Positions 15,245 to 55,888 of a DNA stretch of 64,000 bases are shown here, piece by piece (within the stretch, counting starts at the first letter, position 1; each line of letters starts with the position of its first letter). Under the pieces are notes generated by a model. The model was not told where the DNA came from. It searched no databases and saw only the letters and a program-made list of their open reading frames with translations. The translations under genes and the position numbers were made by a program. Origin of the DNA: Phytoseiulus persimilis (lineage: Eukaryota > Arthropoda > Arachnida > Mesostigmata > Phytoseiidae); assembly GCA_037576195.1 (NCBI GenBank), contig CM075103.1, forward strand, positions 24,304,001-24,368,000. Direction: 5' to 3'.

Positions 15245-15331
15245 TTTTTATTTTTATTTTTTCCATGTGGGAACTTTCCCTCATGTTAATTTATTGTCTG
15301 GCACCTCAACGATTACATCAGACCGCTCGTA

Positions 15332-17623: not shown

Positions 17624-20600
17624 TCACAATTCTCGTCTCTCCTTCTCCAGACGTTCTTTCTCGTGGAATATTGCTCCCACCCTTCGAGTTATGTCGTACC
17701 AGTCGTCCCTCGTTTCCTGCATTTTCGAAACCAGCGCGGGGATGTCCCTCACCGGCAGCGTCCCACGCTGCGGCGCGTAGGCAGGGCACACAGGAATTGT
17801 GTGTTCGACATCGTCTTTAGCTCCCATATCACAGTACATGCATCTGTCGTTTTCTTTTAGTCCGAATCTTTCTAGGTACTCCCCGAAAGCACCATGTCCC
17901 GTAAGAAGTTGCGTGGTGTGGTAGGTGAGTTCTCCAAACTCCCTTGTGAGCCACTTCCTCACGTCGGGAATGCATTTCCTCGTCCACTCGCCTTTTGGGG
18001 ACGCTTGCCAGCGGGCCTGCCACTTACTCAGGGTCTCCTCCCTGAGATCCTCCTCCGTTTGGCTGCTCGGCCCTTCGATTTTTACGTTATCGGTCCTCCT
18101 TCTGTAGATTTCTGCTCGCTCCTCAGCTAGTAGCGACCATGGTATCGTCTTGGCGAGTACCAGTATCGCTTCGGCAGAAACCGTGCGATAGCTTCGGGTT
18201 ATTCGAATGCCCATTGTTCTCTGAGCTCTGTCAAGCGCGGTCTTGTTTGTCTTCTTGGCCAGCGCCCATGGGGCCCATACTGGGGCCGCGTATAGGGCAA
18301 TGGATTCGGCTACCGTGGCCAGAGTTCTTCTCTGGGCCTCAGTAGCGCCGTGTGTTCTTGGCAGTATGCGGGCAATCTCTGCCGCCGCCTTGATCGCCTT
18401 CTCCGTGGCTCTACGTACATGCTGGGTGCAAGTGAGCCTCTTCTGTAAAAGGAGGCCCAGGTACTTAACCGTCTTTCTGATCTGAATTTGATGCCCTTCA
18501 AGGAGCAGGCGTGGTGGACCGGTCCTCCTTTCGCGTAGCATGACCGCCTCTGACTTCATTGGCTCAAGCGCGAGCTCATTCTCCCTCATCCATTTGGAGA
18601 TGATCTCCAGCGATTGGTTTGCTACCTCTCCAAGCTTTTCAGTCGTTCGCGCCTTCACCCAGAGCGCGAGATCGTCTGCGTACGCGATCGTTTTCGCTCC
18701 ATCGGGCAGTTCCAATCGTGGCACATCGTCGTATGCTATGTTCCATAGTGTGGGGCCCAGGACGGATCCTTGTGGCACTCCGGCGCTCATTTGATACCTC
18801 TCACCATCCCATGTTACCCATCGGTCTGAGAGATAAGAGTTTATGACTCTCCTCAAGTAAGGGGAAATCCTTCTTCGCTCTAGACTTCTCAGGATCACCT
18901 TCCAGCTCATCGAGTTAAAGGCGTTTTTGACGTCAAGGAGCACGAGCAAGCAGGTGTTCTCGTATCCCTTCGCGTACTCGGCCGCAGCCTCCTTCATAAG
19001 CCACTCCATGGCCATCAAGGTCGACTTCCCGGAGCGGAAACCGAATTGCCTTTCGGAAAGACCCTCATTTTCTTCGAGTTCCTCTTGGAGTCGTTTGTTC
19101 ACTACCGATTCCATGCCCTTCGCAATCGTGTTGAGGAGGCAAATTGGTCGGTAGGAGCCCTTCGTTCCTTTTGGGATTAGCACAAGTTTCGCTGTCTTCC
19201 AAGACTGGGGGAAGGTACCGGCGGGTAGCATGCTATCGGCCATTCTGGCAACTTGTATAGGCCATCTTTTCATGAGGAGCTTCGTTGCCTCTGGTGGGAT
19301 GCCATCCGGCCCAGGGGCTTTTCCGGCTTTCATTTTCTCCGCGGCTGCTACTATTTCGCAGGCTCTTATCCTCGGTATTCCCTCAGGGTCTACCTGTGGC
19401 GCCGGTCTTTCGAAGTCTTCCCTGTTTGGGAAAAGCTCTCGGATAGCCTTTTCCGCTGACGCTCTCGGAATCGGGTGATGTTTGTGCCCAATTTTGCCTC
19501 TGATGGCCTTGTAAGGCAGGCCCCAGATGTCGTCCCGGAGGCTCTCACAGAACTCTCTCCATTTGCTACGTTTGCTCTCGTGTATCTCGTCTTGGTAGGT
19601 CCTTTTCGAAGATAAGTAGGCCCGAAGTGCCTCTTCGTACTTGTGCGGTTCCCCGTCCATCTTCTTACGGGCTCTCACGAATTTTCGTCTTGCCTTGATA
19701 CATTCTTCTCTGCGCTCCGCTATACTGCTTGTCCACCAGTAGGCCGGCTTCCGGTTTGCCCGGTTTGGGCGCGCTGGTGGTGCTGAAGCCTCGCATACTC
19801 GGGTGAGCAAGTCATGCAGGATGTGTTCGTCCAGTTCAAGGTTTTCGTCTTTTATTTTCCGGCAGCTTTCGTCTATGCTTTCGATGAGGTATTCTCTTCT
19901 GAGTTTCTCCCCTCGCCATATTCTCTCAGTCGGTCTTTCTACCTTCGTCTGTCCCGTCACTACAAAGAATTCGATATAAAGATGATCGCCAGCGGATTCA
20001 TCTGCCTCGTTTACGAGCCATTTCGTTATCCGGTCCGGTCGGTTTGTCACTGTCAGGTCGATGAACGATTCGGCAGTAACAGCGTAAGATCTTTGTGGGC
20101 CCGGGAGCATGGCCTTCCTGTAGGTCGGCGTCCTCCCGTCGTTCAGTACGATGAGGTCGAGTTCCGCGATCCACTCCTCCATATCTGTGCCTCTCCTGTT
20201 TTGTATCGTATTTCCCCATGTTTTCGACTTCGCGTTGAAGTCCCCTGCAATGACTTCTGTTTCAGCTTGGGTGGCCCGAATGCGCTGTACTCAGGAATCT
20301 CTTGAAGTCCATCGGGCTTCCCGGGTTCGGTGAGAAATAGCAACTCGCTACCAGGGTTCCGCTGCTCAGGAGCATCATGCTGATGCCTTTGAAGGTTTCC
20401 TTCTTTTCTATTCTGTCGGTGGGATTTCGGCCCGTCCACCACAGGGCCTTGTCGCCGTCTTCTCCGGCAATCCATCCGTCATCTTTCCTCGAGTTGTCAC
20501 TCGAGATTCTTCGATTCGCTTCGTTTATAATACACATGTGTATATCGTCCCGTTTCAGTTTCTCTTTCAGCTCGTCATGAGCGTCCCTGCACCTATTTAA

Positions 20601-20627
20601 GTTGATTTGTAGAACTTTGACCATCAT
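17624..20627 (-). pseudogene. LINE A1 ORF2: endonuclease and reverse transcriptase
   Basis: Starts near 20627 (VLQINLNRCRDAHDELKEKL). Endonuclease landmarks are NEANRRIS, VIAGDFNAKSKTW, ESFIDLTVTN and SAGDHLYIEF. A frameshift near 20280 separates the first 120 residues from the rest, which is open for 852 codons. RT motifs include APGPDGIPPEATKLL, LIPKGTKGSYRPICLLN, RQFGFRSGKSTLMAMEWL, LLVLLDVKNAFNSMSW, SAGVPQGSVLGPTLWN and the active site AYADDLALW. The C-terminus has a CCHC finger (CMYCDMGAKDDVEHTIPVC). The order APE endonuclease, RT, CCHC is that of R1-clade LINEs. Apart from one frameshift it is well preserved. It overlaps the end of ORF1 by about 35 bases in another frame. Confidence 0.92.
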
Positions 20628-22992
20628 TGTTTTCTGTGGTTTGTGTTTCTCCCGTTCGTGTCCGATTTCCCCTCTGTCCGACTACCTGCCAACCTTCGCC
20701 GTCCTTCTTTGTGGCGCAGGTGGCTGGCTCGGATTCGGCTCGCTGTACGTTGGTCGTTGCGGGGTTCGTTTGGCTTATCTTGCCAGGCGTGCCCCTGTTT
20801 GTTATCTGCTGTCTTGCGAGCGCTGTTTTGGCTTTGAGAGCCTCGAGTAGATCTCTGTATTTCGGGCAGTCTCTCGAGTAGCCCGAGTGGCCCTCCTCTT
20901 GACAGTTCACACAGTGATAGTCCTCCCGGTTTGTTTCGCAGTTCCTGCTCGCATGGCCAACAATACCGCATTCGTAGCATTTCTTCTCCTTTTCTTCTTC
21001 GAGTTCACATGTCGTCGAGCGGTGACCGGCTCTCTGGCACTTGAAGCATCTCGGGACTTCGAGCCACTCCTTGACGTGGCAGAGTCTCCACCCGATCTGG
21101 ACGTTCCGCATATTCAGCAGTCGGTCCGCGTCCTCGTGATTCATTTTAACCACCGCGATGCGAGTTCCTCTACCGTTCCTCCCGATCTTCTCTGACTTAA
21201 GTTGCCATGGCTCTTTGCGTCTTAGGGCCTTATTGAGATCCTTCTCGAGCTCTTCTTCGTCGAGGCCTGTGAGCCTGCGGCTGGCAGTCGTCGGCTCTTG
21301 ATCGCTGTCTCGTGTCTCAGCTCTTCGGTGATGAACGCCTGGAGTCGATGCTGCCCTCCGGAGCTTCTCTCCGCTATCTGTAGTTGGACTTCCTGCCGTG
21401 CTTGGCGGCAGCCTCGGATCTCGACATCCAGTGCTTTAGGGTCCACTTTTTCTTTGAGGTTCTTCAGCACCTCGGCGAAAGTTTGACCCTCTGCGCTGAT
21501 GCTCATAGTTGTCTGGTTTGCCTTCTGCAATCGTTTATTCTTGGGTCGTTCTTCTCCGTTTCTCGCCGTCTTCGTCGAGATCTCCGCCTCTTGCTTTCAG
21601 CCACGTCCAGCAAGCTTCAGTGATTTTGCGGACTTTCATAGCGTCAGCCTTTGCCGGTATCCTTATAAGGGTTTTGTCACCATCGTTGATCTGCGTTTTG
21701 TTTACTTCTCCTATGGCTTTTTGAAGTACCTCCGCGTAGTCCTCTGCTTTTGCTTCCTTCTTCAAACGACCTATTATGAGAGTTCGCCTCTCCTCCGGTG
21801 GTTGTGTGCCCCCCGCTCTCAGTAGAACGGGACATACCACCATGGAGGTGGTGGCGACCTCTCCATCCTCCCGTGTGTCGATTCCCCTTACCGCCGGGAA
21901 GAATTGGGCTAGCTGGGTTATCACGTTGTCGTCTTTTGGATGCTTGTCCCCCGGACAGTGCAGCAGGATGCAGCACTTCCTGTTACCGACGATTCCAGCT
22001 TTGGTGAGCGAGGTCTTGTTGTAGACGCGTTTCGGCCAGTGTTTCCCCGCTAATACGGAGATGTCTTCCGCGGTTTGAAGTAGCTCGATAGCCTCCAGGA
22101 TCTCGTTGGCCGCCTTCAGTTCTTCTCCTTCCTTGCGAGCTGCCTGTGTGTTGCTGTCTCCGCCTGTTGCGCTCTCTAGTTTGGCGATCGTGGCCTCTAG
22201 TTCGGCGATCCTTGCATGGGCGTCGTTCAGCTGCTCGGCGGTCCGCGTCAGCAGGTCCGTTTTCTGTTCCAGTTGCTCGTTCAGGATCTCCAGCTCTTCT
22301 AGATATTCGTGCGGCCTTTCGTCACTGCTGATGATTTCCTCTATGATGCACTTGGCGGCGGAAGGAATGTCGGTCTCCAGTCGGGTGACTCCTCCCTGCA
22401 GTTGCTGGGTGAGCTGTTTCATCTCCTTTGCCGTAGTCTTGGTCTCGATTGCTTTCATACGGTCAACCTTGTCCTTGATTTCAGTCTTGATCTTCTGCCT
22501 GATGACGATTGCGAGGTTCTGGAGGAGCTTACCCCTGCTTGCGATTTTGGCTTGCTTCTCCTCTTCGAGTTCCGGCGTATTCTCTCGATGTCTTTTGAGC
22601 GGTCTTGGGGTGCTCGGTTGGGCTCTTTTTCCTGCAGGGACTTGCTCTTCCGCTCCCCTCTTGTTCTCCGCCTCGCGGGGTTGGTCGGGTCTCGCTGGCT
22701 GGAGCTTCGTTACGGAGGTCGCCGCTGTCACTCCCTCCTTCAGAGTGTCGCTGGTCGAGCCCTCAGTGTCATCCATGCACTCCTGATCGGGGTCCTGGAT
22801 TACGGTGCTGGTGGCAGCCTCCATCGTCGTTCCCTTCTTCTCCGGCGATCTTCCTACTCGCCCTCCCTTCGCGAAGGGGTTGTCGTCAGGGGCTACCTGG
22901 GGTTGGCCGGGTCGGCCTGTCGCTGTGGGCAATTCAGCGGTTTGTTCATTCTTGTGACTGTCCATTATAATCTTCTTGTTCTGTGCCGTCAA
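20593..22992 (-). pseudogene. LINE A1 ORF1 (Gag-like, three CCHC knuckles)
   Basis: About 800 codons in three pieces: 22992-21535, 21530-21222 and 21153-20593, joined by frameshifts near 21530 and 21190. The first piece is long, charged and partly coiled coil (EELEILNEQLEQKTDLLTRT, then AEQLNDAHARIAELEATIAK). The second holds GQTFAEVLKNLKEKVDPKAL, a typical R1 ORF1 stretch. The third carries three zinc knuckles: CFKCQRAGHRSTTC, CYECGIVGHASRNC and CVNCQEEGHSGYSRDC. ORF1 proteins bind the element RNA and chaperone target-primed reverse transcription. It is much longer at its N-terminus than ORF1 of LINE A2. Confidence 0.88.
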
Positions 22993-23841
22993 TCTCCCCT
23001 ATTGTGACGCGGTCCGGTGTCGCTCCCACCTCCTCTCCGCGTTATGATATTGTGGTCTCAGCAGGTCCCCGTGGGCCAGACGGCTAGGGCAACGCACAGC
23101 ATGATTCCTGCATCTCGCGCCTCAGGGTCCCTTCCGGCCACCAACCGGCACTAAGTTGCTGTTTGCTTTTAACGTAGGCTTACGTTCTACCGGCGAGGGT
23201 TGGCTTGTTTTGCCGGAAGCTAGCCGCAACGAAGCTGAAACCACTCAGAGTTGTGGTTTGCAGCACTGTCGTTCGGAATACACCATTCGCTCTGCCGCTA
23301 CCCGTGACCGACTCGCTTCCATAAGACTGATCGTGAATGAGAGCGATTTGTCGAGTTCATGAGCAGTTCAAGATTTCGACCCACTTTGCACACTTCGACG
23401 TAACTGAACTTGAACACCGCCTGAGCCACGAGCATACGGAAATCGGAAAAATGATTCGTCCTTGTGGACGCGCGATGATCCACCTTCCTCCTCTTCAAAC
23501 TCGGAGACTCACTGCGCACCTTGCTTTCGGTACTATCGGCCTAACGAGCGTGCTGTTGTCAAAAAACTCGGCAGATTGATTAGCCTGTTTCCCATGAGTC
23601 TCGAACAATAACCACAGAATTTCTAGAGGTCAATCCACGCTGGCGTCTTCCGCGTCGTCAATACGGTTGGAGCCGGTCACTAAGCTGGAGAGAGCATTAT
23701 TAATACATCGTTCTCTTCCACTGCGAAAACCTGCGTGGTCCCTCAACCCAATTCCAATAGGGGTGCTAGAGGCGTTCGCTCTGAGGATTTTAGGTGGGAT
23801 TGTCATTCGTGCCGACCGTTCGTCTGTGTTGCTCCTTCATC
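22993..23841. other. LINE A1 5' region and possible Helentron 5' flank
   Basis: From 22993 to about 23240 the minus strand is probably the 5' untranslated region of LINE A1. From about 23240 to 23841 nothing is recognised apart from the approach to the Helentron Rep start at 23842. No minisatellite units occur here, so the 5' flank of LINE A1 has been replaced, deleted or was never in the array. Confidence 0.35.
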
Positions 23842-36742: not shown

Positions 36743-37077
36743 ATAATAAAGTTTCATGTCAGGCTGCCTTTACGCGCGCGCAGTTTTCACATCGTATTCT
36801 TCTAAGCAGTTTTGTCTAACGGTGCTCCTAACGGGTGTCGTCAATCAGCGAACGGAGACATTCTGTGACGGTGGATGCAATCATCTGCGGCTGAGACTGA
36901 CACCGTTCGACGATCCCTCACGCCAATCAACTCTATCGAAAGTGTTTTGCTAGCATCGCCGCAGGTCCAGAGCGAATCCAGAAGCGCACGACGAAGACGT
37001 CGACATAGCGGTCACAACCCATCTGATCCTCGATCTCCGCCATCAGGCTGTACCATCAGACTTCATCATCCAGCGAG

Positions 37078-39899: not shown

Positions 39900-40281
39900 G
39901 ACCCCTCCAGACTTGAAAAAGCATGGTCAGATTGGCCTCGGAATCAACCCTCGAGACTTGGGGAAGTATGGTCAGATTGGTCTCGGAATCACCCCTCCAG
40001 ACTTGAAAAAGTATGTTCAGATTGATCCCGGAATCACCCCTCCAGACTCAGAAGAGTATGGTGAGATTGGTCTCGGGATCACCCCTCGAGACTTGGAAAG
40101 TAATGGTCAGATTGGTCTCGGAATCACGCCTCCAGACTTGAAAAAGTATGTTCAGATTGATCCCGGAATCACCCCTCCAGACTCAGAAGAGTATGGTGAG
40201 ATTGGTCTCGGGATCAACCCTCGAGACTTGGAAAGTAATGGTCAGATTGGTCTCGGAATCACCCCTCCAGACTTGAAAAAG
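39900..40281 (+). repeat. 45-bp minisatellite, array D
   Basis: About 8.5 units. The last five units are almost identical in order and sequence to the last five units of array F, and both arrays are followed by the same LINE 5' end. The array ends with GACTTGAAAAAG (40270-40281), the left copy of the LINE A2 target-site duplication. Confidence 0.95.
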
Positions 40282-40350
40282 CCTGATGAGCTAAAACTGA
40301 GCGCGAAAACGCGAGGGCCCCAACTGAACTCCACCATCATTGTGTCTCGC

Positions 40351-40965
40351 ATGGACATGGTCACTGATGAGTTGGAGATCGATAAAGAACTCAGAAGCGC
40401 ATTAGGAAGGCAGCAGGAAGGATACATTCGAGTGGAACAGATTAGAGAAACGAAATCAGGGGAAAGAACAGCCTTGGTCCGACTATCCAAATCCGACGCT
40501 GAAAGGATGCTTAAGATAGGAAAGATCAAGATCGGATGGCAACTCTGCAGCGTAAAAGAATGGTACGATGTTCCTATCTGCTACAGGTGTCAGGGCGTGG
40601 GCCACAAATCCAACACTTGCTCAGTGAAAGAAACAAGAGAGAGGAAGTGCTACCGATGCGGAGGCAACGGCCACATCGGCAAGAATTGTGAATCAGCGGA
40701 AGCTTTCTGTACAAGCTGTGAAGCAAGCGGACATTCGGCATACTCATCACTGTGCCCGAAATATCGACTGATCATCCAGACGATGCGAGACCGGTCGCGA
40801 AGGAGTGGACAGCGAACTGAGAATGTCGAGAACCGCGGACCAGCAATCGGAAAACCCACAGAAGCCGAGACGCAAGAGAAGACCATAGGAAACAGAACAA
40901 AAGAGTCTGAAGGATGGATCACAATGCAGAACGGGAAGAGGGTCCCGTCAGGAAACCTACAATGA
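40351..40965 (+). CDS. LINE A2 ORF1 (Gag-like, three CCHC knuckles)
   Basis: The ATG at 40351 (MDMVTDELEIDKELRSAL) is the first inside the LINE; the frame is also open leftward, through the LINE 5' end and the whole of array D to 39913. Three zinc knuckles are present: CYRCQGVGHKSNTC, CYRCGGNGHIGKNC and CTSCEASGHSAYSSLC. Upstream, GERTALVRLSKSDAERMLKI and KIKIGWQLCSVKEWYDVP match the same part of LINE A1 ORF1. About 205 residues from this ATG is short for an R1-clade ORF1 (usually 400 or more), so the N-terminus is missing or is supplied by the array frame. The stop TGA overlaps the ORF2 start (ATGA). Confidence 0.8.
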   Translation: MDMVTDELEIDKELRSALGRQQEGYIRVEQIRETKSGERTALVRLSKSDAERMLKIGKIKIGWQLCSVKEWYDVPICYRCQGVGHKSNTCSVKETRERKCYRCGGNGHIGKNCESAEAFCTSCEASGHSAYSSLCPKYRLIIQTMRDRSRRSGQRTENVENRGPAIGKPTEAETQEKTIGNRTKESEGWITMQNGKRVPSGNLQ

Positions 40966-43644
40966 ACATGAAGATAGTACAGATCAACCTCAACAGATCT
41001 AGAGCAGCACACGCTCTCCTGGAAGACAGAGTCAACAAGGAAGATATCAGCGTATGTATACTGAGCGAAGTTAATAGAAAAATATCCAACAGAAAATTTG
41101 GAAGAGACCAGGGATGGATTTCTGAAGAATCAGGGGATACTGCCATATGGATCACCCGTAACTGTAAGGAAAGTATCAAGGAACGGAAGATAGCTGGAGG
41201 TATCACCGAGGTGGCCCTCGCCGAGGGCAACACACGCCTCCTCAGCTGTTATTTCTCACCGAATCGGAATACGGAAGAATTCATTGAATACATCGAAGCA
41301 CTAGAAAACGTCGTTGAAGGAACGATCGGACAGCTTATCCTCGCGGGAGACTTCAATGCGGCATCAACGGCCTGGGGAAGTGCTCGCAACACAACCAGGG
41401 GCAATGCCCTGGAGGAGCTACTGGCAAGACACGGATTGTATATACTCAATGACAGCAAGACCCCCACATTCCGAAGAGGTACACAGGAGACCTTCATCGA
41501 CATCACAGCAGCACGAATCCCGTCTGGGATCTTAGGATGGACAGTCAATGATGAATTCGAGTCGCTCAGCGACCATCTGTTTGTGGAGATGGAAGCTGTA
41601 GGAGAGGAACAACAAATACCAGAAAGACAGACCGGCTGGATTGCAAGACGACTCGACCAGGAGATCCTCGCGCAAAACATAGATGAGGAATGCAAGAGAC
41701 TTAAAGACTTCAATATGAATGTAAATGAACATGTTATTCTGAAGATCCTACGCAATGCCTGTCAGGCAGCATCCTCGAGAGCATCACCCCAGCTTGGCCG
41801 AAAAAGGCCAGCGTACTGGTGGACGCGAGAAGTCGTGGAGCAGAGAAAAACTTGCCTCTCAGCACGAAGAAACTACGTGCGATCGAGTAGAACAATACAC
41901 ATGAGTCCCTAAGCAACGAAGCAGTCCTTAACAAGATACTCGCTGGAAAAAAAGAAGTACATGAAGACTATCTTGGACGCAAAACGCGCGAGCTGGAGGG
42001 ATCTCCTTGAGAATCTCAGACAGGATGTGTGGGGTCTTCCATACAAGATCATCCGAGATAAGGTTGGCCGACACAGGCGACAACTATCCTCCGAAACAAT
42101 TGACAAGGCAGTCTCGGACCTCTTCCCAGAGGGCACCGATTTCGAGAGAGAAAACTTATCCATCAATGAAGAAGATATCCCCGAGGTAACCAATAAAGAA
42201 GTTATAGACGCTGCCGATCGAATCGCGCTCCGCAAAACATCGGGACCCGATGGCATCCCAGCAGAAGCTCTCAAGATACTCATGAAGAGATGGCCATCCA
42301 TCTTCAGAAAAGCCGCAAACGCGATCATACAGAGTGGAATCTTCCCACCTCAATGGCGAACTGCAAGGCTCGTACTGATCCCGAAACCTGGGAAACCGAA
42401 CTCCTACAGACCCATATGCCTGCTGGACACAACCGCCGAGGCAGTGGAGAGCATAATAAACAGAAGACTACAAGATGAGCTTGAAGAGGACGGGCGTCTC
42501 TCCGAAAACCAGTTTGGCTTTCGAAGAGGAAGATCCACCCTGTCTGCCCTGGAAAGGGTTACGCATATAGTTGATGCCGAGAAGCAGCGCTCACGGAAGC
42601 TGAGAGACCGTGTCCTCATCACCCTTCTGGATGTCAGGAATGCCTTCAATTCGGTCGAGTGGGAGGTCGTCCTGGAAAGTCTGCAGAAGAGGCAGATCTC
42701 CCCTTACCTCCGGAGAATACCGAGCTGCTACCTACAAAATAGATGGATCGTCGACGAGAAAGGTCGAACCCATCGAATGTCAGCGGGAGTTCCGCAGGGT
42801 TCGGTGTTAGGACCGACCTTGTGGAATGTGGCTTATGACGACGTTTTGAGAGAGGTACTCCCAAGGGGAGCTGTGACTATCGCATACGCTGACGACCTTG
42901 CGATCATAACTAAGGCAAGATCAATCGAGGAACTGGAAGAAATCACACAGGACTCACTTGACATAATCTCACGGTGGATGAAAGCGAATCACCTCGCCCT
43001 TGCGCCTGAGAAAACGGAGGCTGTGATGCTGATCAAACGCGAAAAGGAGCGCCTCCCGATAGTGGTAGTGGAAGGACGTAGAGTAGAAGTGGCCAGATCC
43101 GCGAAATACTTGGGAGTTCTATTACAGTCCGACCTGGCGGGGACTGAGCACATCAAGATGGTCGTCAATAAGGCCACGAAAGCGGCAACCGACATAGCGA
43201 CGATTTTACCGCGCACCTATGGAGCATCTGAGGAGCAAAGGAGGATTTTGGCCACAGTAGCCCAATCCATCGCACTGTATGCCGCCCCTATTTGGAGTCC
43301 ATCTGCGCTGCGATACTAGAAGAACAGAGTCAGCTTTGCTTGTGCTGGCCCGCGCGATCCCGTGGCCCTTCCTAGCGCAGGAGAGAGTGGAGACCTACAG
43401 GAGCGACAAGATCCGAGATGGGACGACGAGTCCGGAAGTGACGAGGAGGCCCACAAAAAGGTTGAAGAGTTACGCGAAGAGACGCTCAACAAGTGGCAAC
43501 AATCTTGGAGCAGCTCGCTGACCGGCAGAACGACCTACGATAGCATATCGGATCTGCGAAGCTGGTACAAGCGGGAATTCGGTGAACTGACGTACCACAC
43601 AACCCAAGTCCTCACAGGACATGGAGATTTCCAGAAGTACCTTC
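40962..43644 (+). pseudogene. LINE A2 ORF2, 5' part: endonuclease and reverse transcriptase
   Basis: Start at 40962 (MNMKIVQINLNRSRAAHALL), overlapping the ORF1 stop as ATGA. Endonuclease landmarks are LSEVNRKIS, LILAGDFNAASTAW, ETFIDITAARI and LSDHLFVEME. An in-frame TAA at 41910-41912 interrupts the linker. RT motifs are SGPDGIPAEALKILM, LIPKPGKPNSYRPICLLD, NQFGFRRGRSTLSALERV, LLDVRNAFNSVEWE, SAGVPQGSVLGPTLWN and AYADDLAI. Near 43310 about 25 residues are missing relative to LINE A1 and the frame shifts twice. The last coding stretch (YKREFGELTYHTTQVLTGHG) stops at the BEL insertion point and continues at 51331. Confidence 0.9.
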
Positions 43645-44043
43645 TGATGCTAAACCCTACCGGCTCCAACCTGGAATTTGCACTTCGTTGAGAGCGCTGG
43701 CTCTCTCGTTCCGTTAACTCGAACGGCGACTATGATACTGGACGTGCAACGTTCCACCCTGTGGCGCTGCAACGCAGCTATCCGCCGTGCACCCTGGGAG
43801 CGACTTGACCATTTTATTTGGCATCCACATATCGATTAACCGTACTGCCAACGGGCCCTTTACCTAGATACAAAGATGCAGGTGGCGCCCTGGCGCTACA
43901 CTCTAGGAATTCTAGGCAAAATGGAGCGATTTTGTGTTTCCACCAGGTGCGCTTGTGGCGCCCCGCTGTGGCCTACGGCCGAACTACAAAAATCGCTTCC
44001 ACGAACGAGTCGAGACTCTGGGGTCCGACCACCTTTCGTGACA
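43645..44043 (-). repeat. BEL 3' LTR
   Basis: 399 bases, the downstream LTR for the minus-strand element. It is adjacent to the GGCGGGAG tract (minus strand, at 44044 and up), a weak candidate polypurine tract. It differs from the other LTR at about five positions. Confidence 0.93.
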
Positions 44044-45284
44044 CTCCCGCCGAACCGGGTTCCGGTTCTGATTATAATTGGACAATTCATTTACGCACTT
44101 GTTGTACCTACTCCGATATTGCTTCGGCGAGACTGGAGCAACTCGTCTCCAGCAACCGGAGAGTTTCGCGCTACATGATACATTGAGCACACTTGATCTG
44201 CACATTTGAAACTCCGAAGAAAGCCTGCCATGCCATTTGACACCGTAATCCCGATATCTTCTTATGCAAAGCCAAGGAACTTGATTGGATGATTATGGAC
44301 GAATCACACTCCGGGCCGCACTGGCGGTGACTTTTACTCCACCCCCAATGTGTTCTCGACAATAAAACTCGCCATGTCGACTCTCACTTGTTCTTGGTCT
44401 TGCGACCAGTGCGTCCACCCGTCTCCACCGTCTCTCCAGACCGTGCCCCCTTCAACTCAACACACCGTAAGTTTTGTCTCTGGAACTTTCCCCGACCGCG
44501 CTGTTTCTTTCCCGGACGCTGCCCCAGATTCTTCCGAGCTTCCTGCTTTCAGGTCCGATGGCCTACGCTTTCAACCACACCCATGAGCGCGTCGGTCGCC
44601 AGGGCATGCATTCGGAGTATGCGTGCACGCCCCGCGGTTTCCTCGACCTCATGTGGCGCATCACGTGCCCTGGTTTCGAGGCGCTGTGCGATGCCGCTCG
44701 GGGCCAATACCTCGATCACTACCTGGCCGCGGCCAGCCCGGCTGCCCCCGCGCGCTTTCCCGTCTGGCCACCGCGTTGATCGACGCCAACTGGCTACTCC
44801 CACTCACCGCGCCATCTCTGAGTTCGTTACCGCTTCCCCTGCCACCGCAGCCCATGGGTGCCATGCCGCCCGTGCCGCGCGCATCAACCGTCCGCCCCAC
44901 GCTGCCCGTGCCGCACGGCTCATCCCCCCTGCCGCCGCAGCCGGAACCATCGCCAACTCCGACAAAGCCGCAGCCGCCGCCAACTCCGACCACGCCGCCG
45001 CCGCCGCCAACTCCGACCAAGCCGCCGCCGCCGCCGAACCCGACCACGCCGCCGCCGCCGCCAGCCCTGACCCCGCCACAACCATCACCCGCCCCCATCC
45101 CCGATCCCAGTCCGGAAAGCCGGCGCGCTGCCGCCCACGCGGCCGCGTCGGCCGCCCGAATGGCCCGAGAGATAGCTGACTGGAATGAAGAGGACCCCCC
45201 CCCCCCCCCGAGATGGTGGGCTCCTGTGTTTGGCGGGATGAGTAATAAACGCAACTGACCCCGATTTGACCCGACTCCTGTTCT
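44044..45284 (+). other. Antisense segment in BEL 3' region with proline-rich reading frame
   Basis: This 1.24-kb stretch between the BEL stop codon and 3' LTR has no BEL-sense gene I recognise. On the plus strand there is a possible small gene. GTAAGT near 44467 and CTTCCTGCTTTCAG ending near 44552 could bound an 85-base intron, followed by ATG at 44558 (MAYAFNHTHERVGRQGMHSE) open to 44779. A second, overlapping frame, open from 44623 to 45258, is proline-rich (PTPTKPPPPPNPTTPPPPP). AATAAA follows at about 45244. A frameshift joining the two frames is conceivable. It could be a captured gene, an antisense gene of the element or chance in GC-rich repetitive sequence; no domain is recognised. 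Confidence 0.4.
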
Positions 45285-48200
45285 CTAATTTACGGCTGGC
45301 GCCACATCTATCTTATAGAGTAGCTGGATGGGTCTTTTAAGAAATTTCCCCGTAGGTAGTCGTACGATCACGGTTCTGACGCGTCCGTCTGAGCCTCCCT
45401 CCCCGCGGCAAACAGAATGCACGCGAGCCATGGGCCAATACGCTCGCGATGCCGCTGGATCGTCTAGGAGAACTATATCGCCCTCTTTCAATGATCTACT
45501 TTCTACCGGTAGCCTTGCTAAATTGGACTTCAGCTGAACCAAGTATTCTTTGCGATATCTTGCCCAAAACGCGTTCATGATATTTTGCTGATATTTCCAT
45601 CTTTCCGACAAGATGATCGGTGTGGCTAACTCCGACGTGTTTATCACGTTCGTCAGATCTGGCAACGCTGGCTGCACCTGATTCCCGTATAGCAAATCTG
45701 ACGGTCTCAACGGTAGCAGCTCATCGGGATTCGTGCTGACGCACGTTAACGGCCTGTCGTTCACTATCTTCTCGATGTCCGTGAGAATCGTTTCTAGTTC
45801 CCTAAACGTGGGAATGTTTCTCCCCAGAATTTTCCTCAACGGGCGTTTGATCGTTCCTATTAGCCTTTCCGTGAAACCATTCCTCCACGGCGCCCTCGCC
45901 GTCGAGTGAAACCAACTGAGTGAATTTTTTGCTAGGAAACTCTGCGTTTCCGCCGCTCTCGACAAATCAAACATGGCTTTCACTTCTTTCGCCGCCCGTC
46001 GGAACGCAGCGGCGTTGTCCGAATAAAAAGCTTTAACCGTAGGGTTTCTGTTGTAGAACCGCCGCATGGCCATCAAGAATTCATACGTGGATAAATTCTC
46101 GACCAGTTCTATCCTCACTGCCCGCGCTACTGGACATACGAAAATCATTGCGTACGCCGGAACCTTTCTCCCCACCGAATTCCTGACCGTGAGTGGTCCC
46201 GCCGCGTCGACACCTGTCGTGTGAAACGCTGGTGCCGTAGCCACTCTGAACCCGGGCAAGTCCGGCATCTCTTCGGCCGCTGGTCGCGCCTTGAAACGGT
46301 TGCATGTGCGACACGCCACCAGCGCCTTGCTAGCGGCACGACGTGCTCTTAACACGAGAAACCTCCTCCTTAACCCCTGTAGAATCCCTTGCACCGCGCC
46401 GGCGTGCAGACATAACTGCTCATGTGTCCACCGAATGTATGCCGCTACCACCTCGTTCTCTCCTGGGAGAATCACTGGATTCTTGATGTCGAACGTGACA
46501 TCTTTGAGATTACTCAACCGCGACCGACACCTGATGAGCCCGTCCGCATCCAGGAATGGGCTGAACTGGGAAATTTCGCTCTTTTTCGACAGCTCCTTGA
46601 GCCCCTGGCTGAGTTCTGCCCCGAAGTGCTGCTGTTGCACCCGTTTGAACACTTCCCGTTCCGTAGCTTGCCATTCTGGCGCCGTGACTATCTGTAGCCA
46701 CTGTGGTTTGAGAACCCTCTTATACCGTCTCCATCGAAAGATGTATGCCAAAACTCTCATCGATTTCGCCCAAGAAGAACCCAACGGTATGTTCAGCGCT
46801 CCTACACTTGCCGTGGTTGCCCCGACGAAACACTGAGACCTTCTTTCGTTCGCGACCTCCCGTTCTGACTCGTCTGAGTTTAGCGAATGACTCTGGGGCA
46901 TACCCTCATTACCCAGCCAACTCGGTCCCGACAACCAAAACTTTCTGAGCTCCTCCGTATCTAGCGCCGAGAACCTTGAAACAAGATCAGCCGGGTTATC
47001 CGCTGTCCTGACATATCTCCATTGCCGTGCTTCCAAACTACTCTGGATTTCCCTTATGCGATTTTCCACAAAGCTCTTCCACCGCTCCGGTCAGTCTCTA
47101 ATCCCAGCTAGGACACACGCATTGTCGCACCAGAAATTCACCGACACAAAGGGAACGTTCACCGCCTCGCCTATTTTCTTTGCGATTCTCGTGGCCACAA
47201 TGGCACCCAACAGCTCCAGTCTGTGGATGGACCATTCCCCCTTCAACGGTGCTACTCTGCCCTTCGCCATTATGAATGCTACCTTCACCTTACCCGGCTC
47301 GCCGATATCTCTCGCATAGGCTACACACCCATAACCCAGCAAACTGGCATCGCAAAATATATGCAATTCTTGCGCACTGGCGCAAGACTGCCCAACCATC
47401 TTCCGGAAATTCCGCTCGACGCGGACCTCTTTCACGTGCCTTAAGCGACCCGTGGTTTCCAAATATTCCGCCTTATCCACCTCGTCTAGCGGTGCGTCCC
47501 AATCTACTTTTTTCTGCCAGTACTTCTGTAGCAGCCTCTTGAATCCTAGCATTATCGGCGCGACAAGACCGATTGGATCGAAAACTTGACTAGCGCCTTT
47601 CAGCAAAGCTCTCTTCGATGGCGAACCCGCCTTGAAAAACTCGATTGTCTTAGTCGCGTCAATATGCAGCGAATCCGCTCTTTGATTCCATCGGACACCC
47701 AGAAATTTGAAATTCTCGTCTTGGAAAGTAACGGTCGCATCCGGATATTTTGCTGTGATGAATTCCCCGAGTTCCGCTGAATTCGTTGACCACTTCTTGA
47801 GCGGAAAACATCCCGCAGCAAACGACTCATTCAGAACTTCAACCACTTTTTGTCCCTGTTGGACATTTTCCGAGCCTGCCAACAAATCGTCGACGTAGAA
47901 ATATTTCTTTACGAATTCCAGGAGTGTTCGATGCTCCGGTCTCCGCGCGATCTCGTGCTCTGAATGCAATCGGATCCCCGCGCAGTGTTGAAATGGTGCC
48001 GAGATCAAGCCGAATGACAAACGACACGATCGCATTTCTCGAAACTTGGCTCTCGGATTCTTGCTGATTCCTAACGGCCACAGAAACCTCAAAAACTTTC
48101 TTTGTTCCGGCGTGATTTCGAATTGTAGATATGCCCTTTCTATATCTGCCGTTATGACTATTGGTAACTGACGAAACTGTAACACCACCGCAATCAACTC

Positions 48201-50813
48201 CCTAATGAGATTTTCACCCTGGAACAATACATCATTCAGGCCTGCCGCATTTCGTGACCGCGCACTGGCGTCGTTCACTACTCTGACTTTCATCTTCGAA
48301 GTGGCTGTCGCCTGCTTCTTGATTACTGCTAGTAATGGCAAATAATGAGACTGCTCTCCGGGCCTGGGAGGATCCGTGAGTTCTATGAACTCCTGCTCGA
48401 GCAAATCTTGCATCTCTGCATCCACCGCTTCGAGCAGCTGTGGGTTTTTTCTTGCTTGAGCTAGGAAACTCCTCAGACGCCGCTCCGTGAGATCCCGATT
48501 GTCTCCCAAAGTATGAATGTTTGGCTTGAACGGCAGCTGAATGACGTACCGCCCGTCTGGGTCTCTCGTCGTCGTTGATTCAAAGAACCGCCTGATCTCC
48601 TCATCCGGTGCTTCGTCGTCCTCCTTGAAGTATGGCTCGATACCCATGACTTCCGTGTCCCAGAGAAACGAAATGTCCTCCGGTTCGTACTTCGCGCGTA
48701 CCGCCACCGCCAATGAAACTGCTGTTTCACTCCTAGGTTCCTTCCCTCCAGACCAAGCTTCCCTCTTTTGCCTAATAACCGACAATAAAGGCGAGTTTGC
48801 CTGAGTCTCCTGGTGTTGCCCGGTTCCACACAGGAAGTACCCGAACAGCGTCTCGAGCGCTACGAAACCCCCGACCTTCTTTATGGACTGCCCCACGATA
48901 GGATACAAGTAATCCACCCCAATGAGGATGTTGATCTCGCTCGACCATTGTCCTTCGTTCCTGTCAGCTATTGGGCCCAGGTTCCCTACACATCCCGCCT
49001 CCGGCAAACAGCCTTCTACCACATTCGGCAGCGCAGTGGCGTGTATGACCAAATGTTTATCCGAGAATCGGCTCTTTAACGCGATCTCGACAATCCTTCC
49101 CTTGCATTTTTTCGGCTCTGCTTGGCCAGCCGCCTGTAGGAAGAAACTATCCGTGCCCACCGCCTTCGCTCTAATAGCGTCCGCGAACCGATTCGAAATA
49201 AGAGTCTTCTGCGACCCTGTGTCCAGCACGATCCTCCCGACTGCCTCACAGTGGTCGCTTACCACCTCCACATACCCAGTGGGGAGCCGCCTTTCCGCAA
49301 CATTCGTTATCCTTATCGAATTCACGCTAGCACGCCCCGTCGCCTGGGTCACCACCGGTGCCGACGCCGCAACCTCTGCGTTCGACTTTACGCACAGCAA
49401 CTCGTGATGTCTACCCTTACATCTCGCACAAGGCTTGGCCTTGCACTTGTCGACCCGGTGATTACGGTTCAGGCATTTGTAACAGGCATTCTTCGTCGTT
49501 GCACACTTCCTCCGCTCCTCGTGCGACATTGGCTTCCTACACTTATTACTAGGATGCTGCTCAGAACAAAAAATACACGCCTGATCTGCGGATAGGTTAG
49601 TGGCATGAACTGCGAACGAGTGTTGGCTACTTACAGCCCCGGTTGCACCGGCAACACTGAACCTATTATTCTCTGCTCGCCGGAAAGAGTTGCTGCTTGA
49701 GGCGCCGCCAAACCGATTTCCCTTCATATTCTTTGAAGGACTCGCCACCTCCACTATGCCTCTCGACGATAGCTTCAGCCGTTCGACCTGTTTTTTCTCT
49801 TCAGACAAAAAAGCGACCAACGCCTCCAGCCTCGACTCTCTTTCCTCCTCCGGCTGTGCTCTATATGCTCTATCAAAATCCCTCCGCAGATCATACGATA
49901 GCGTTTGCATAATCAACGTAGAAGCGAAAGCCGACATACCCTCGTAGCTGTTGCCCAACAAGACCAACGAATCGATGTTTTGTGCGAGGTCTTCGACGAA
50001 GTCTACAAACTTGCGGTTGACCACCGCTTCCCGCCTGAAACTCCAGCCGCATAGGCTTATGACCGTATTGACATGTTGCTCCTCAGCCAGGACGATGTCA
50101 TCAAATCTGTCGTAAAGAGAGTTCCTCGCGTCTTCGTAATTTTCTGCCGTGACGTCGCGGCCTCCCAGGCACCTCGCTGCTCTGCCCGACAACGTCTTAA
50201 GCATGAGTTCAAATTTTTCCAGCGAGTCCATCGCCGATGAGTCCACGTGCAGCACAAACGCGTTTTTCCATCTCCGGAACCTCGTGGGATCACCGTCAAA
50301 TTTCGGTATCCTCTCCAAAATGTCCTTCCATGAGCTTCTCGGCCCTGATGTCCTGTGCTCCAAAGTCGAGTGGAGTCGTGACTCTCTCTCTCTGACGCAA
50401 TCATGTTGGACGGAATCGGATTCTCGCCGGGACCCCGCGCTGTCGGACGTCCCTGGCTCCAGGCTCCTGATGAATGCCCCGATATCGAACTTCGCATCGG
50501 CGATTCTCAGCTCGTAATCCATTGCCTTCGCGGCTTCCGCCTCCTGCACGTCATCCGAGAACAACTTCGAGTTCACGACCCGCTGCGTCGCTTTGGTCAG
50601 CCGCTTTTCCTGCTCGCTAAGCAGATTGGCTGCTTCCTTAGCATTTGCTGCTGCTTTTTCACCGGGACCCTGTTCGATCACGTTCTTTGTTCGCGTAACC
50701 GACCGGGTAACTAGGGCTCTCGCCAACGAAAGCTCCCGCTTCAGGCCATCTAAACTTCCACCTGCGGTCTCTCGTCCCGACAGCTCGACGTCCGCTTTGT
50801 CTTCAGTTGGCAT
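45285..50813 (-). pseudogene. BEL/Pao Gag-Pol polyprotein with one internal stop
   Basis: One frame from 50813 to 45285, about 1,840 codons, interrupted only by TGA at 47091-47093. Gag has the capsid-like segment WKDILERIPKFDGDPTRFRR near residue 160 and zinc knuckles at about 418-471 (CIFCSEQHPSNKC, CYKCLNRNHRVDKC, CARCKGRHHELLC). The A17-type protease has IVLDTGSQKTLIS near 530. RT has VITADIERAYLQFEI and active site YFYVDDLLAGS near 973. RNase H has LHIFCDASLLGYG and RLELLGA near 1150. After the stop come the integrase HHCC segment, core residues in GVDAAGPLTV, FYSDNAAAF and NGFTERLIG, and a C-terminal domain with LKEGDIVLLDD. The stop could come from a single CGA-to-TGA change. Confidence 0.93.
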
Positions 50814-50913
50814 CCTGCCACGATATTTCCACTAGCGTCACTCAGAAATCTTCTCCTTCACGCGTGACCTTGTCCGACCTTGCTCGAGCGTTGGCTCTTG
50901 CGTGGATTTCTTT

Positions 50914-50931
50914 TTAAACTTCTGACACCAC
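50914..50931 (-). promoter_or_regulatory. BEL primer-binding site
   Basis: On the minus strand TGGTGTCAGAAG follows the 5' LTR end (GCATCA) after one base. TGG is the invariant start of sites complementary to a tRNA CCA end. The donor tRNA was not identified. Confidence 0.75.
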
Positions 50932-51330
50932 TGATGCTAAACCCTACCGGCTCCAACCTGGAATTTGCACTTCGTTGAGAGCGCTGGCTCTCTCGTTCCG
51001 TTAACTCGAACGGCGAGTATGATACTGGACGTGCAACGTTCCACCCTGTGGCGCTGCAACGCAGCTATCCGCCGTGCACCCTGGGAGCGACTTGACCATT
51101 TTATTTGGCATCCACATATCGATTAAGCGTACTGCCAACGGGCCCTTTACCTAGATACAAAGATGCAGGTAGCGCCCTGGCGCTACACTCCAGGAATTCT
51201 AGGCAAAATGGAGCGATTTTGTGTTTCCACCAGGTGCGCTTGTGGCGCCCCGCTGTGGCCTACGGCCGAACTACAAAAATCGCTCCCACGAACGAGTCGA
51301 GACTCTGGGGTCCGACCACCTTTCGTGACA
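50932..51330 (-). repeat. BEL 5' LTR
   Basis: 399 bases, the upstream LTR for the minus-strand element, expected to hold its promoter. It is followed on the plus strand by the CCTTC target duplication and the resumed LINE A2 ORF2. Confidence 0.93.
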
Positions 51331-51865
51331 CCTTCATCGCTTCAAGAAAGCTCCTAGCCCACTGTGCATCCTTTGCGATTCAGGGGCAGAAGACGATGTG
51401 GATCATACGGTCTTCACTTGCGAAGCGCTGTCTCAGCCAAGACGAGGCTTAGGAGGAGGCACGGTCCCATAACTGGTCCAGAAGATGCTGCAAAATGAAG
51501 GTAAGTGGAATTTAATCTCACGCAAAATAGGATGTATGCTCAAAAAAAAGGAGAACATGCTCATGCGAAGAAACGCAGAACTAAACAGGCAAATTATGCC
51601 TGCGCCTGAGGTCCCGTAGGGAACCCTAGCCGCAAGACACAACGGAGAATAGATAACAAAAGGGAGACGAGAGCTGACTGACGAAGCGGACGGCCCTCGG
51701 TGACCCGGAAGTAATACAATACAGGGCTTGCCTTGAGTGCCCAGTCACCAAAAGGGCGGAGGGAGGGGTTTTAGAGGACACACCTCATAACTAGGGTAAC
51801 GGACGTAAGTCCCATCTCTTGTATCCGAAGGGATTTCCCCTCCCGCCAGGAAGAAAAAAAAAAAA
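51331..51865 (+). pseudogene. LINE A2 ORF2 C-terminus and 3' UTR
   Basis: Continuation of LINE A2 after the BEL insertion. The first 140 bases encode the C-terminal CCHC finger (CILCDSGAEDDVDHTVFTC) and CEALSQPRRGL, with a stop at GGTVP where the homologous copy at 52148 reads on to MPAPEVP. The 3' UTR of about 240 bases ends in GGGATTTCCCCTCCCGCC and 12 A residues, then array E. Confidence 0.88.
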
Positions 51866-52147
51866 GACTCGAAAAAGCATGGTCAGATTGGCCTCGGAAT
51901 CACCGCTCGAGACTTGGGAAAGTATGGTCAGATTGGTTTCGGAATCACCCCTCCAGGCTGGGAAAAGTATGGCCAGATTGGTCTCGGAATCACCCCTCCG
52001 AACTCGGAAAAGTATTGTCAGATTGGTCTCGGGATCACTCCCACAGACCTGGAAACTAATGGTCAGATTGGTCTCGGAATCACGCCTCCAGACTTGAAAA
52101 AGTATGGTCAGATTGATCCCGGAATCACCCCTCCAGACTCAAAAGAG
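51866..52147 (+). repeat. 45-bp minisatellite, array E
   Basis: About six units between two LINE insertions. It begins with the right copy of the A2 duplication (GACTCGAAAAAG) and ends with the left copy of the next insertion's duplication (GACTCAAAAGAG, 52136-52147). Confidence 0.95.
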
Positions 52148-52613
52148 TGGATGTGGATCATCCGGTCTTCACTTGCGAAGCGCTGTCTCAGCCAAGACGA
52201 GGCTTAGAAGGAGGCACGGTCCCAGAACTGGTCCAGAAGATGCTGCAAAATGAAGGTAAGTGGAATTTAATCTCATGCAAAATAGGATGTACACTCAAAA
52301 AAAAAGAGAACATGCTCATGCGAAGAAACGCAGAACTAAACGGGCAAATTATGCCTGCGCCTGAGGTCCCGTAGGGAACCCTAGCCGCAAGACAGAACGG
52401 AGAATAGATAACAAAAGGGAGACGAGAGTTGACTGACGAAGCGGACGGCCCTTGGTGACCCGGAAGTAATACAATACAGGGCTTGCCTTGAGTGCCCAGT
52501 CACCAAAAGGGCGGAGGGAGGGGTTTTAGAGGACACACCTCATAACTAGGGTAACGGACGTAAGTCCCATCTCTTGTATCCGAAGGGATTTCCCTCCCAC
52601 CAGAAAAAAAAAA
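52148..52613 (+). mobile_element. 5'-truncated LINE (A2 family) tail
   Basis: 466 bases corresponding to the end of ORF2, the 3' UTR and an A10 tail, very similar to 51400-51865. It is flanked by perfect 12-base duplications GACTCAAAAGAG at 52136-52147 and 52614-52625, and the array resumes in phase. The coding part is open: the finger region through RRNAELNGQIMPAPEVP ends at 52374, about 50 codons beyond the premature stop in A2. It is a textbook target-primed insertion truncated at its 5' end. Confidence 0.93.
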
Positions 52614-54875
52614 GACTCAAAAGAGTATGGTGAGATTGGTCTCGGGATCACCCCTCGAGACTTGGAAAGAAATGGTCAGATTGGTCTCGGAATCACCCCT
52701 CCAGACTTGAAAAAGCATGGTCAGATTGGCCTCGGAATCACCCCTCGAGACTTGGGAACATATGGTCAGATTGGTCTCGGAAGCACCCCTCCAGACTTGG
52801 AAAAGTATGGCCAGATTGGTCTCGGAATCACCCCTCCAAACTCGGAAAAGTATTGCCAGATTGGTCTCGGGATCACTCCTACAGACCTGGAAACTAATGG
52901 TCAGATTGGTCTCGGGATCACCCCTCGAGACTTGGAAAGTAATGGTCAGATTGGTCTCGGAATCACGCCTCCAGACTTGGAAAAGTATGGCCAGATTGGT
53001 CTCGGGATCACCCCTCCAAACTTGGAAAATAATGGTCAGATTGGGCTTGGAATCACCCATCCAGACTTGGAAAAGTATGGTCAGATTGGTCCGGGAATCA
53101 CCCCTCCAAACTTGGGAAGTGATGGTCAGATTGGTCTCGGAATCACGCCTCCAGACTTGAAAAAGTATGTTCAGATTGATCCCGGAATCACTCCTCCAGA
53201 CTCAGAAGAGTATGGTGAGATTGGTCTCGGGATCACCCCTCGAGACTTGGAAAGTAATGGTCAGAGTGGTCTCGGAATCACCCCTCCAGACTTGGAAAAG
53301 TATGGTCAGATTGGTCCGGGAATCAACCCTGCAAACTTGGAAAGTAATGGTCAGATTGGTCTCGGAATCACGCCTCCAGACTTGAAAAAGTATGTTCAGA
53401 TTGATCCCGGAATCACCCCTCCAGACTCAGAAGAGTATGGTGAGATTGGTCTCGGGATCAACCCTCGAGACTTGGAAAGTAATGGTCAGATTGGTCTCGG
53501 AATCACGCCTCCAGACTTGGAAAAGTATGGCCAGATTGGTCTCGGGATCACCCCTCCAAACTTGGAAAATAATGGTCAGATTGGGCTTGGAATCACCCAT
53601 CCAGACTTGGAAAAGTATGGTCAGATTGGTCCGGGAATCACCCCTCCAAACTTGGGAAGTGATGGTCAGATTGGTCTCGGAATCACGCCTCCAGACTTGA
53701 AAAAGTATGTTCAGATTGATCCCGGAATCACTCCTCCAGACTCAGAAGAGTATGGTGAGATTGGTCTCGGGATCACCCCTCGAGACTTGGAAAGTAATGG
53801 TCAGAGTGGTCTCGGAATCACCCCTCCAGACTTGGAAAAGTATGGTCAGATTGGTCCGGGAATCAACCCTGCAAACTTGGAAAGTAATGGTCAGATTGGT
53901 CTCGGAATCACGCCTCCAGACTTGAAAAAGTATGTTCAGATTGATCCCGGAATCACCCCTCCAGACTCAGAAGAGTATGGTGAGATTGGTCTCGGGATCA
54001 ACCCTCGAGACTTGGAAAGTAATGGTCAGATTGGTCTCGGAATCACCCCTTCAGACTTGAAAAAGCATTGTCAGATTGGCCTCGGAATCACCCCTCGAGA
54101 CTTGGGAGAGTATGGTCAGATTGGTCTCGGAATCACCCCTCCAGACTTGGAAAAGTATGGCCAGATTGGTCTCGGAATCACCCCTCCGAACTCGGGAAAG
54201 TATTGTCAGATTGTCCTCGGGATCACTCCTACAGACCTGGAAACTAATGGTCAGATTGGTCTCGGAATCACCCCTCCAGACTTGGAAAAGTATGGTCAGA
54301 TTGGTCTCGGAATCACGCCTCCAGACTTGGAAAAGTATGGCCAGATTGGTCTCGGAATCACCCCTCCAAACTTGGAAAATAATGGTCAGACTGGGCTTGG
54401 AATCACCCATCCAGACTTGGAAAAGTATGGTCAGATTGGTCCGGGAATCACCCCTCCAAACTTGGAAAGTGATTGTCAGATTGGTCTCGGAATCACGCCT
54501 CCAGACTTGAAAAAGTATGTTCAGATTGATCCCGGAATCACCCCTCCAGACTCAGAAGAGTATGGTGAGATTGGTCTCGGGATCACCCCTCGAGACTTGG
54601 AAAGTAATGGTCAGAGTGGTCTCGGAATCACCCCTCCAGACTTGGAAAAGTATGGTCAGATTGGTCCGGGAATCAACCCTGCAAACTTGGAAAGTAATGG
54701 TCAGATTGGTCTCGGAATCACGCCTCCAGACTTGAAAAAGTATGTTCAGATTGATCCCGGAATCACCCCTCCAGACTCAGAAGAGTATGGTGAGATTGGT
54801 CTCGGGAACAACCCTCGAGACTTGGAAAGTAATGGTCAGATTGGTCTCGGAATCACCCCTCCAGACTTGAAAAAG
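52614..54875 (+). repeat. 45-bp minisatellite, array F
   Basis: About 50 units. A 540-base block of 12 units at 52921-53460 is repeated at 53461-54000 with almost no change. The array ends GACTTGAAAAAG (54864-54875) against LINE A3. The frame through the array (from 52662) runs without a stop into LINE A3 ORF1, giving 965 codons. Confidence 0.95.
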
Positions 54876-54944
54876 CCTGATGAGCTAAAACTGAGCGCGA
54901 AAACGCGAGGGCCCCAACTGAACTCCACCATCATTGTGTCTCGC

Positions 54945-55559
54945 ATGGACATGGTCACTGATGAGTTGGAGATCGATAGAGAACTCAGAAACGCATTAGG
55001 AAGGCAGCAGGAAGGATACATTGGAGTGGAACAGATAAGAGAAACGAAATCAGGGGAAAGAACAGCCTTGGTCCGACTATCCAAATCCGACGCTGAAAGG
55101 ATGCTTAAGATAGGAAAGATCAAGATCGGGTGGCAACTCTGCAGCGTAAAAGAATGGTACGATGTTCCTATCTGCTACAGGTGTCAGGGCGTGGGCCACA
55201 AATCCAACACTTGCTCAGTAAAAGAAACAAGAGAGAGGAAGTGCTACCGATGCGGAGGCAACGGCCACATCGGCGAGAATTGTGAATCAGCGGAAGCTTT
55301 CTGTACAAGCTGTGGAGCAAGCGGACATTCGGCATACTCATCACTGTGCCCGAAATATCGACTGATCATCCAGACGATGCGAGACCGGTCGCGAAGGAGT
55401 GGACAGCGAACTGAGAATGTCGAGAACCGCGGACCAGCAATCGGAAAACCCACAGAAGCCGAGATGCAAGAGAAGACCATAGGAAACAGAACAAAGGAGT
55501 CTGAAGGATGGATCACAATGCAGAACGGGAAGAGGGTCCCGTCAGGAAACCTACAATGA
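54945..55559 (+). CDS. LINE A3 ORF1 (Gag-like, three CCHC knuckles)
   Basis: Nearly the same protein as A2 ORF1, ending VPSGNLQ. The knuckles are CYRCQGVGHKSNTC, CYRCGGNGHIGENC and CTSCGASGHSAYSSLC. As with A2, the frame is open upstream across the insertion junction into the minisatellite, because the insertion point is the same and the unit is 45 bases. No internal defects are visible in this ORF. Confidence 0.8.
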   Translation: MDMVTDELEIDRELRNALGRQQEGYIGVEQIRETKSGERTALVRLSKSDAERMLKIGKIKIGWQLCSVKEWYDVPICYRCQGVGHKSNTCSVKETRERKCYRCGGNGHIGENCESAEAFCTSCGASGHSAYSSLCPKYRLIIQTMRDRSRRSGQRTENVENRGPAIGKPTEAEMQEKTIGNRTKESEGWITMQNGKRVPSGNLQ

Positions 55560-55888
55560 ACATGAAGATAGTACAGATCAACCTCAACAGATCTAGAGCA
55601 GCACACGCTCTCCTGGAAGACAGAGTCAACAAGGAAGATATCAGCGTATGTATACTGAGCGAAGTTAATAGAAAAATATCCAACAGAAAATTTGGGAGAG
55701 ACCAGGGATGGATTTCTGAAGAATCAGGGGATACTGCCATGTGGATCACCCGTGACTGTAAGGAAAGTATCAAGGAACGGAAGATAGCTGGGGTATCACC
55801 GAGGTGGCCCTCGCCGAGAGCAACACACGCCTCCTCAGCTGTTATTTCTCACCGAACCGGAATACGGAAGAATTTATTGAATACATGT
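55556..55888 (+). pseudogene. LINE A3 ORF2 fragment (endonuclease start)
   Basis: MNMKIVQINLNRSRAAHALL through SEESGDTAMWITRDCKESIK matches A2, then a single-base deletion shifts the frame. The sequence stops matching A2 at GAATTTATTGAATACAT. Confidence 0.85.

Follow-up and report, generated by a model that had tools for sequence, protein, structure and literature searches.

Insertions of a LINE family at a preferred point of a dispersed 45-bp minisatellite in Phytoseiulus persimilis

The stretch of P. persimilis DNA analysed here (64,000 nucleotides; hereafter the window) contains arrays of a 45-bp minisatellite that are entered by several LINEs, which raises the question of whether these elements choose a particular point of the repeat unit and, if so, how generally and by what means. 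The insertions of one LINE family, designated family A, and the arrays around them are arranged as follows.

39901..40281, plus strand: 45-bp array 5' of LINE A2, ending in GACTTGAAAAAG (40270-40281), the 12-base 5' copy of a duplication
40282..43643, plus strand: LINE A2, part 1, a 5'-truncated ORF1 with CCHC knuckles followed by ORF2
43644..51331, no strand assigned: LTR element nested within LINE A2 and separate from it
51332..51865, plus strand: LINE A2, part 2, comprising the end of the element, the 3' UTR and poly(A)
51866..52147, plus strand: array separating two family-A insertions; 51866-51877 are the 3' copy of the A2 duplication
52148..52613, plus strand: second family-A insertion, 5'-truncated, 466 bp with poly(A) counted
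52614..54875, plus strand: array, back in phase; 52614-52625 are the 3' copy of a perfect 12-bp duplication
54876..55886, plus strand: LINE A3, beginning only, with a 5' junction identical to that of A2, broken off after 55886

LINE A2 is a single element interrupted by the LTR element, whose direct repeats (43644-44044 and 50931-51331) are 98.8% identical and which has CCTTC on either flank, given TG...CA as its termini. The ORF2 of part 1 covers the endonuclease and the beginning of the reverse transcriptase (RT), and its reading frame is broken. At the second insertion the array ends with CACCCCTCCAGACTCAAAAGAG (52136-52147, the 5' copy of the duplication), the LINE follows, and the array continues with GACTCAAAAGAG from 52614; the duplication, recomputed, matches at 12 of 12 bp. 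Recomputation for LINE A2 gives a 12-bp duplication with one mismatch, GACTTGAAAAAG on the 5' side and GACTCGAAAAAG (51866-51877) on the 3' side. Both duplications, as well as the return of the array in phase 3' of the insertion, had been described in the initial annotation of this DNA, and coordinates and letters are confirmed. The same annotation listed A3 as a third copy; its 5' junction is indeed as in A2, but its independence is doubtful. A3 and A2 are truncated at the identical base, and mismatches between them number 1 in the 191 bp of array upstream, 33 in the preceding 190 bp and 17 of 1012 within the LINE. The shared truncation base and the near-identity of the upstream 191 bp, set against the divergence farther out, indicate that A2 and A3 are probably one insertion that was duplicated later, which would leave two independent family-A insertions within the window, not three. 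No 3' end of A3 was found in the window, where family-A sequence stops at about 55886; the sequence that interrupts it (55887-60003) shares 73-79% identity with A2's nested LTR element.

Whether copies elsewhere lie off the array or are scattered within the unit, the check proposed in the initial annotation, was addressed in the assembly that holds the window (181 Mb, 127 contigs, with four large scaffolds of 54.7, 52.0, 38.9 and 28.1 Mb). The last 28 bases of the LINE, with up to 3 mismatches, match at 95 places (control, 0). Seventeen of these matches start with TGTCC and represent a sister subfamily; the other 78 are family A, and 77 of their 3' ends were read (C1:20987413 was left out), yielding 76 distinct junctions, among which the nearby duplicates L057/L058 and L087/L088 are counted separately, so that independent events are slightly fewer than 76. 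A flank was called array when its score in an ungapped comparison with four unit variants exceeded the best of 96 shuffles. By this measure, array directly follows the tail in 61 of the 76 distinct 3' ends, and in 54 of these 61 the A-rich tail ends, by rule, within 2 bp of the boundary between ATCACCCCTCCA and GA(G/C)TTGG. Reading by eye brings the number to 60, as an indel or an A-rich start defeats the rule in six copies (L084, L090, L092, L097, L099 and L106); the sole exception, L089, joins the array at a different point of the unit. Two copies, L039 and L051, have only 16 and 12 bp of unit after the tail before other sequence begins, the latter (the same copy as L012) with array on its 5' side, and 13 of the 76 are off-array. 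A 32-base stretch of the unit matches at 39,639 places when at most 3 mismatches are allowed (control, 0); at 45 bp per match the arrays occupy about 1% of the assembly, a count that misses more diverged units. The binomial chance of finding 61 of 76 copies in array has a log10 P of about -107 if arrays make up 1% of the assembly and of about -64 if they make up 5%. The preference of family A for one point of the 45-bp unit is real and wider than the window, and its copies are spread over the four large scaffolds. We estimate at roughly 90% the probability that family A is a site-specific APE-type LINE, which would enter by target-primed insertion at a point of the unit recognised by its endonuclease.

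The sister subfamily behaves differently in the same genome. Its last 28 bases differ from those of family A at 3 positions, and of its 3' ends, read at 31 sites (29 distinct), a single one was called array, marginally so (L146, 23/34 with a threshold above 22). A broken RT lying 1-2 kb upstream of the sister 3' end L207, assigned to the sister by position, groups with the family-A clade. These data bear on the idea that insertion occurs anywhere and that copies survive in the neutral minisatellite and are purged elsewhere. Insertion elsewhere is evidently possible, given the 13 off-array copies of family A, but such a retention bias leaves unexplained why a single point of the 45-bp unit is occupied (54 of 61 by rule); moreover, the sister subfamily keeps its off-array copies (28 of 29), and recent, near-identical copies of family A likewise sit in array. 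We therefore consider retention very improbable, even if it fares best among the alternatives to site-specific insertion. As a separate observation, nine sister 3' ends follow one another at intervals of about 12-23 kb close to the end of scaffold C1 (C1:54598338-54732319); three of their flanks were read and proved very similar, which would fit a long tandem unit carrying them.

Family-A copies have many different 5' truncation points with array upstream, and L124, L126, L127 and L130 possess a common full-length 5' end (ACGATAACGAAG...) set in array. Both ends were read for 15 array copies, and a duplication of 12-14 bp was detected by rule in 8 of them (the second window copy, A2, L011, L041, L019, L124, L126 and L123). 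In L012 and L017, duplications of 8 and 10 bp are completed to 12 by the first letters of the LINE itself, duplications of 13-14 bp were recognised by eye in L056 and L127, and a clean duplication is absent from L035, L045 and L060. The unit variants agree on both sides of insertions, an example being the rare GATTGGAAAGTAAT. Slightly less credible still than retention is that a few insertions were multiplied together with the arrays by recombination, so that the common junction was simply inherited. This does hold for A2/A3, L041/L042, L057/L058, L087/L088 and a cluster of LINE A1 ends on C1 (see below); most copies, however, differ in 5' truncation, tail length and the unit sequence after the tail, the local unit variant is present in the duplications, and the 78 entries comprise 75 distinct 80-base flanks, with 5 near-identical pairs. 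Two off-array copies, L036 and L052, also carry duplications, of 12 and 14 bp respectively (with one mismatch in L052), with extra bases between the duplication and the LINE, so that the behaviour of the family as a whole resembles the usual target-primed insertion biased towards a certain sequence. ORF2 is open across 1026 residues at four places (on C4, C2 and C1) and is 99-100% identical there to P0001, which possesses Exo_endo_phos_2 and RVT_1 domains; the near-identity of these open frames points to recent movement of family A.

Site specificity in family A would probably depend on recognition, by the ORF2 endonuclease, of a short sequence present once per 45-bp unit. The bottom strand would be nicked between ATCACCCCTCCA and GASTTGG, where reverse transcription of the poly(A) RNA would be primed, and a cut in the top strand 12-14 bp downstream would cause the insertion to duplicate GASTTGGAAAGT(AA). 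The 3' junction and the orientation of family A are fixed, and the 12-14 bp duplications are present at part of the sites; target-primed reverse transcription is the step that we infer by analogy. The specificity would likewise reside in the endonuclease, after the example of TRAS1 and SART1, between which domain swaps shift the target (PMC7265360). Altogether, family A most likely inserts by the mechanism already known for site-specific LINEs. Selection of the site through pairing of the 3' UTR of the RNA with the unit appears a still slimmer prospect than inherited junctions: although the LINE end (...CCCCTCC...AG) is similar to CCCCTCCAGA beside the cut, 16% of 2000 shuffles are equally good, and the sister, which lacks the preference, ends in 28 bases that are almost identical. 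The same shuffles led us to reject the idea that the 3' UTR mimics the unit, the similarity being insignificant. Least plausible of all is that the tandem repeat belongs to the LINE: array does adjoin both ends in many copies, but unit matches (39,639) vastly outnumber family-A 3' ends (78), flanking units vary among loci, and the off-array L036 and L052 lack array yet possess duplications.

The use of this point extends beyond family A. A search for an A-run followed by GASTTGGNAAG produced 69 genomic matches (control, 8), of which 29 coincide with family-A ends already identified. Reading the remaining 40 showed clear array in 37, a borderline case (L179) and non-array sequence in L170 and L188; four of the 40 again proved to be family A. 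As the search itself fixes the phase, its new information lies in the variety of 3' ends, about ten types of which were distinguished at the GASTTGG junction; these were named by eye, automatic clustering having chained different types, and not all are established as LINEs. Family-A insertions reduced to poly(A) and roughly the final dozen bases of the element still occupy the same unit point in L161 and L176. A control search for an A-run at another phase gave 22 matches (control, 3), 14 of which read as an A-run directly followed by GATTGGTC. A sharper pattern for this second spot, between CA and GATTGGTC, gave 26 A-run junctions by pattern match (control, 0); they include C1:43701170, C4:1843452 and C4:50373-53762. 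The resemblance between CA followed by GATTGG and CA followed by GASTTGG suggests recognition of a short motif, and the unit appears to offer one or more additional points that can be used, if perhaps not by every element.

For three of the 3'-end types (F9, F3 and F4), ORF2 matches adjoin the array junctions, and their RTs form a clade with family A, the sister and three database proteins (SH-aLRT 95), the inner branching of which is poorly supported. The 3' flanks of 12 further ORF2 matches partly argue against a target common to the whole lineage. Two of them (L192 and L197) join array at the family-A point and L196 belongs to the reverse-orientation lineage considered below, while seven (L191, L194, L195 and L198-L201) have an A-run followed by non-array sequence; L202 has no tail, and the flank of L193 is ambiguous.

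The reverse-orientation lineage is represented in the window by LINE A1.

13402..15246, plus strand: second 45-bp array, which LINE A1 enters from the right end in reverse orientation
15247..15290, minus strand: A1-type 3' end, ...GGGAAAGTTCCCACATGG with an A-rich tail that abuts AGTCTGGAGGGG, which is CCCCTCCAGACT in reverse complement
17624..22998, minus strand: coding part of LINE A1, with a CCHC-containing ORF1 and an ORF2 for endonuclease and reverse transcriptase

The A1 lineage enters the 45-bp unit about 4 nt from the family-A point and in the opposite orientation. Its junction pattern recurs in 8 of the 12 genomic 3' ends of A1 type, six of them clustered on C1 (C1:54103783-54135056), one on C2 (C2:6488504-6488539) and one in the window, corresponding to about 3-4 events. 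In the RT tree, A1 and P0005 constitute the next branch outside the family-A clade (SH-aLRT 99 for all ten rows). The initial proposal that one LINE family selects one spot in the minisatellite thus holds genome-wide but was too narrow, considering the other 3' ends, the reverse lineage and the second, similar spot.

Family A likely belongs to the R1 clade, as had been proposed from the window; the assignment draws support from its endonuclease, which has conserved GDFNA and SDH motifs and, compared with PDB sequences, matches TRAS1 best (E 2.5e-12), followed by R1Bm (E 7e-4). Three features of this clade are present, namely a CCHC ORF1 (zf-CCHC domains in both A2 and A1), an ORF2 with APE-type endonuclease and reverse transcriptase, and sequence-specific insertion. 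The RT tree, in which P0063 is the one R1-named element, which holds no reference set of other clades and whose midpoint root serves for drawing only, places family A in a group of 28 rows, apart from 97 rows that include the R1-like P0063. As for individual R1-clade families, 61 of the 76 family-A copies join the 45-bp unit and not the telomeric repeats that define TRAS/SART, nor the 28S target that defines R1.

A SINE-like element, Cp1, reportedly inserts site-specifically into centromeric satellite repeats of the fly Chironomus pallidivittatus; it differs from family A in being SINE-like and centromeric. No LINE with a minisatellite target was found in the literature searched, outside of which most subscription papers fell, and minisatellites are absent from the target lists in the accessible parts of PMC4640811 and PMC5035012. 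TRAS and SART use telomeric repeats in opposite orientations (PMC7265360), as family A and A1 do in the minisatellite, and like family A they are APE-type elements occupying fixed points of a tandem repeat; their target, however, is a 5-bp telomeric repeat, whereas that of family A is a 45-bp minisatellite dispersed genome-wide. R1, RT and R7 (rDNA) and Mino (AC repeats) are R1-clade elements with strict targets (PMC3124438), as family A probably is, but they insert into rRNA genes or into a dinucleotide repeat rather than into a 45-bp unit. YURE of sea squirts is sometimes found in a satellite, U2_sat (PMC4640811), as family A is in its minisatellite; in contrast to family A, YURE is related to Utopia and NeSL, families with a different endonuclease type, and has a weak specificity, and its satellite derives from its U2 gene target.

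The novelty, then, lies in the kind of sequence targeted, in how many 3'-end types use it, in its use from either strand and in the existence of a close relative that does not have the preference. We give even odds to a broader reading, in which APE-type LINEs would have radiated and specialised on the dispersed minisatellite (about ten 3'-end types told apart by eye, with RT placing four in a single clade), alongside a neighbouring lineage on the opposite strand and one close member that either lost the preference or never had it. If this is true, the satellite would offer LINEs a safe harbour across the genome, the LINEs in turn may break, extend or spread the arrays, and havens of this kind might exist in satellites beyond rDNA and telomeres. 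The unit varies among arrays, so that the genome offers thousands of natural target variants, and it unites families that have the preference, a close relative that lacks specificity and a lineage in reverse orientation; a comparison of these natural endonucleases could directly test how APE-type LINE endonucleases choose their targets.

The window contains several other features. A Helitron-like element (23794-36742) comprises a Helitron_like_N ORF (23794-26661) and a helicase end with an endonuclease-like domain (35408-36742), between which lie a tandem pair of 332 bp and 6.5 kb of 45-bp array in reverse orientation (28731-35235). Adjoining this element is an ORF with replication protein A OB-fold domains (37027-38565). 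Finally, positions 4495-8343 hold a pair of tandem segments, about 92-95% identical, with minus-strand ORFs containing a 57-bp in-frame repeat.
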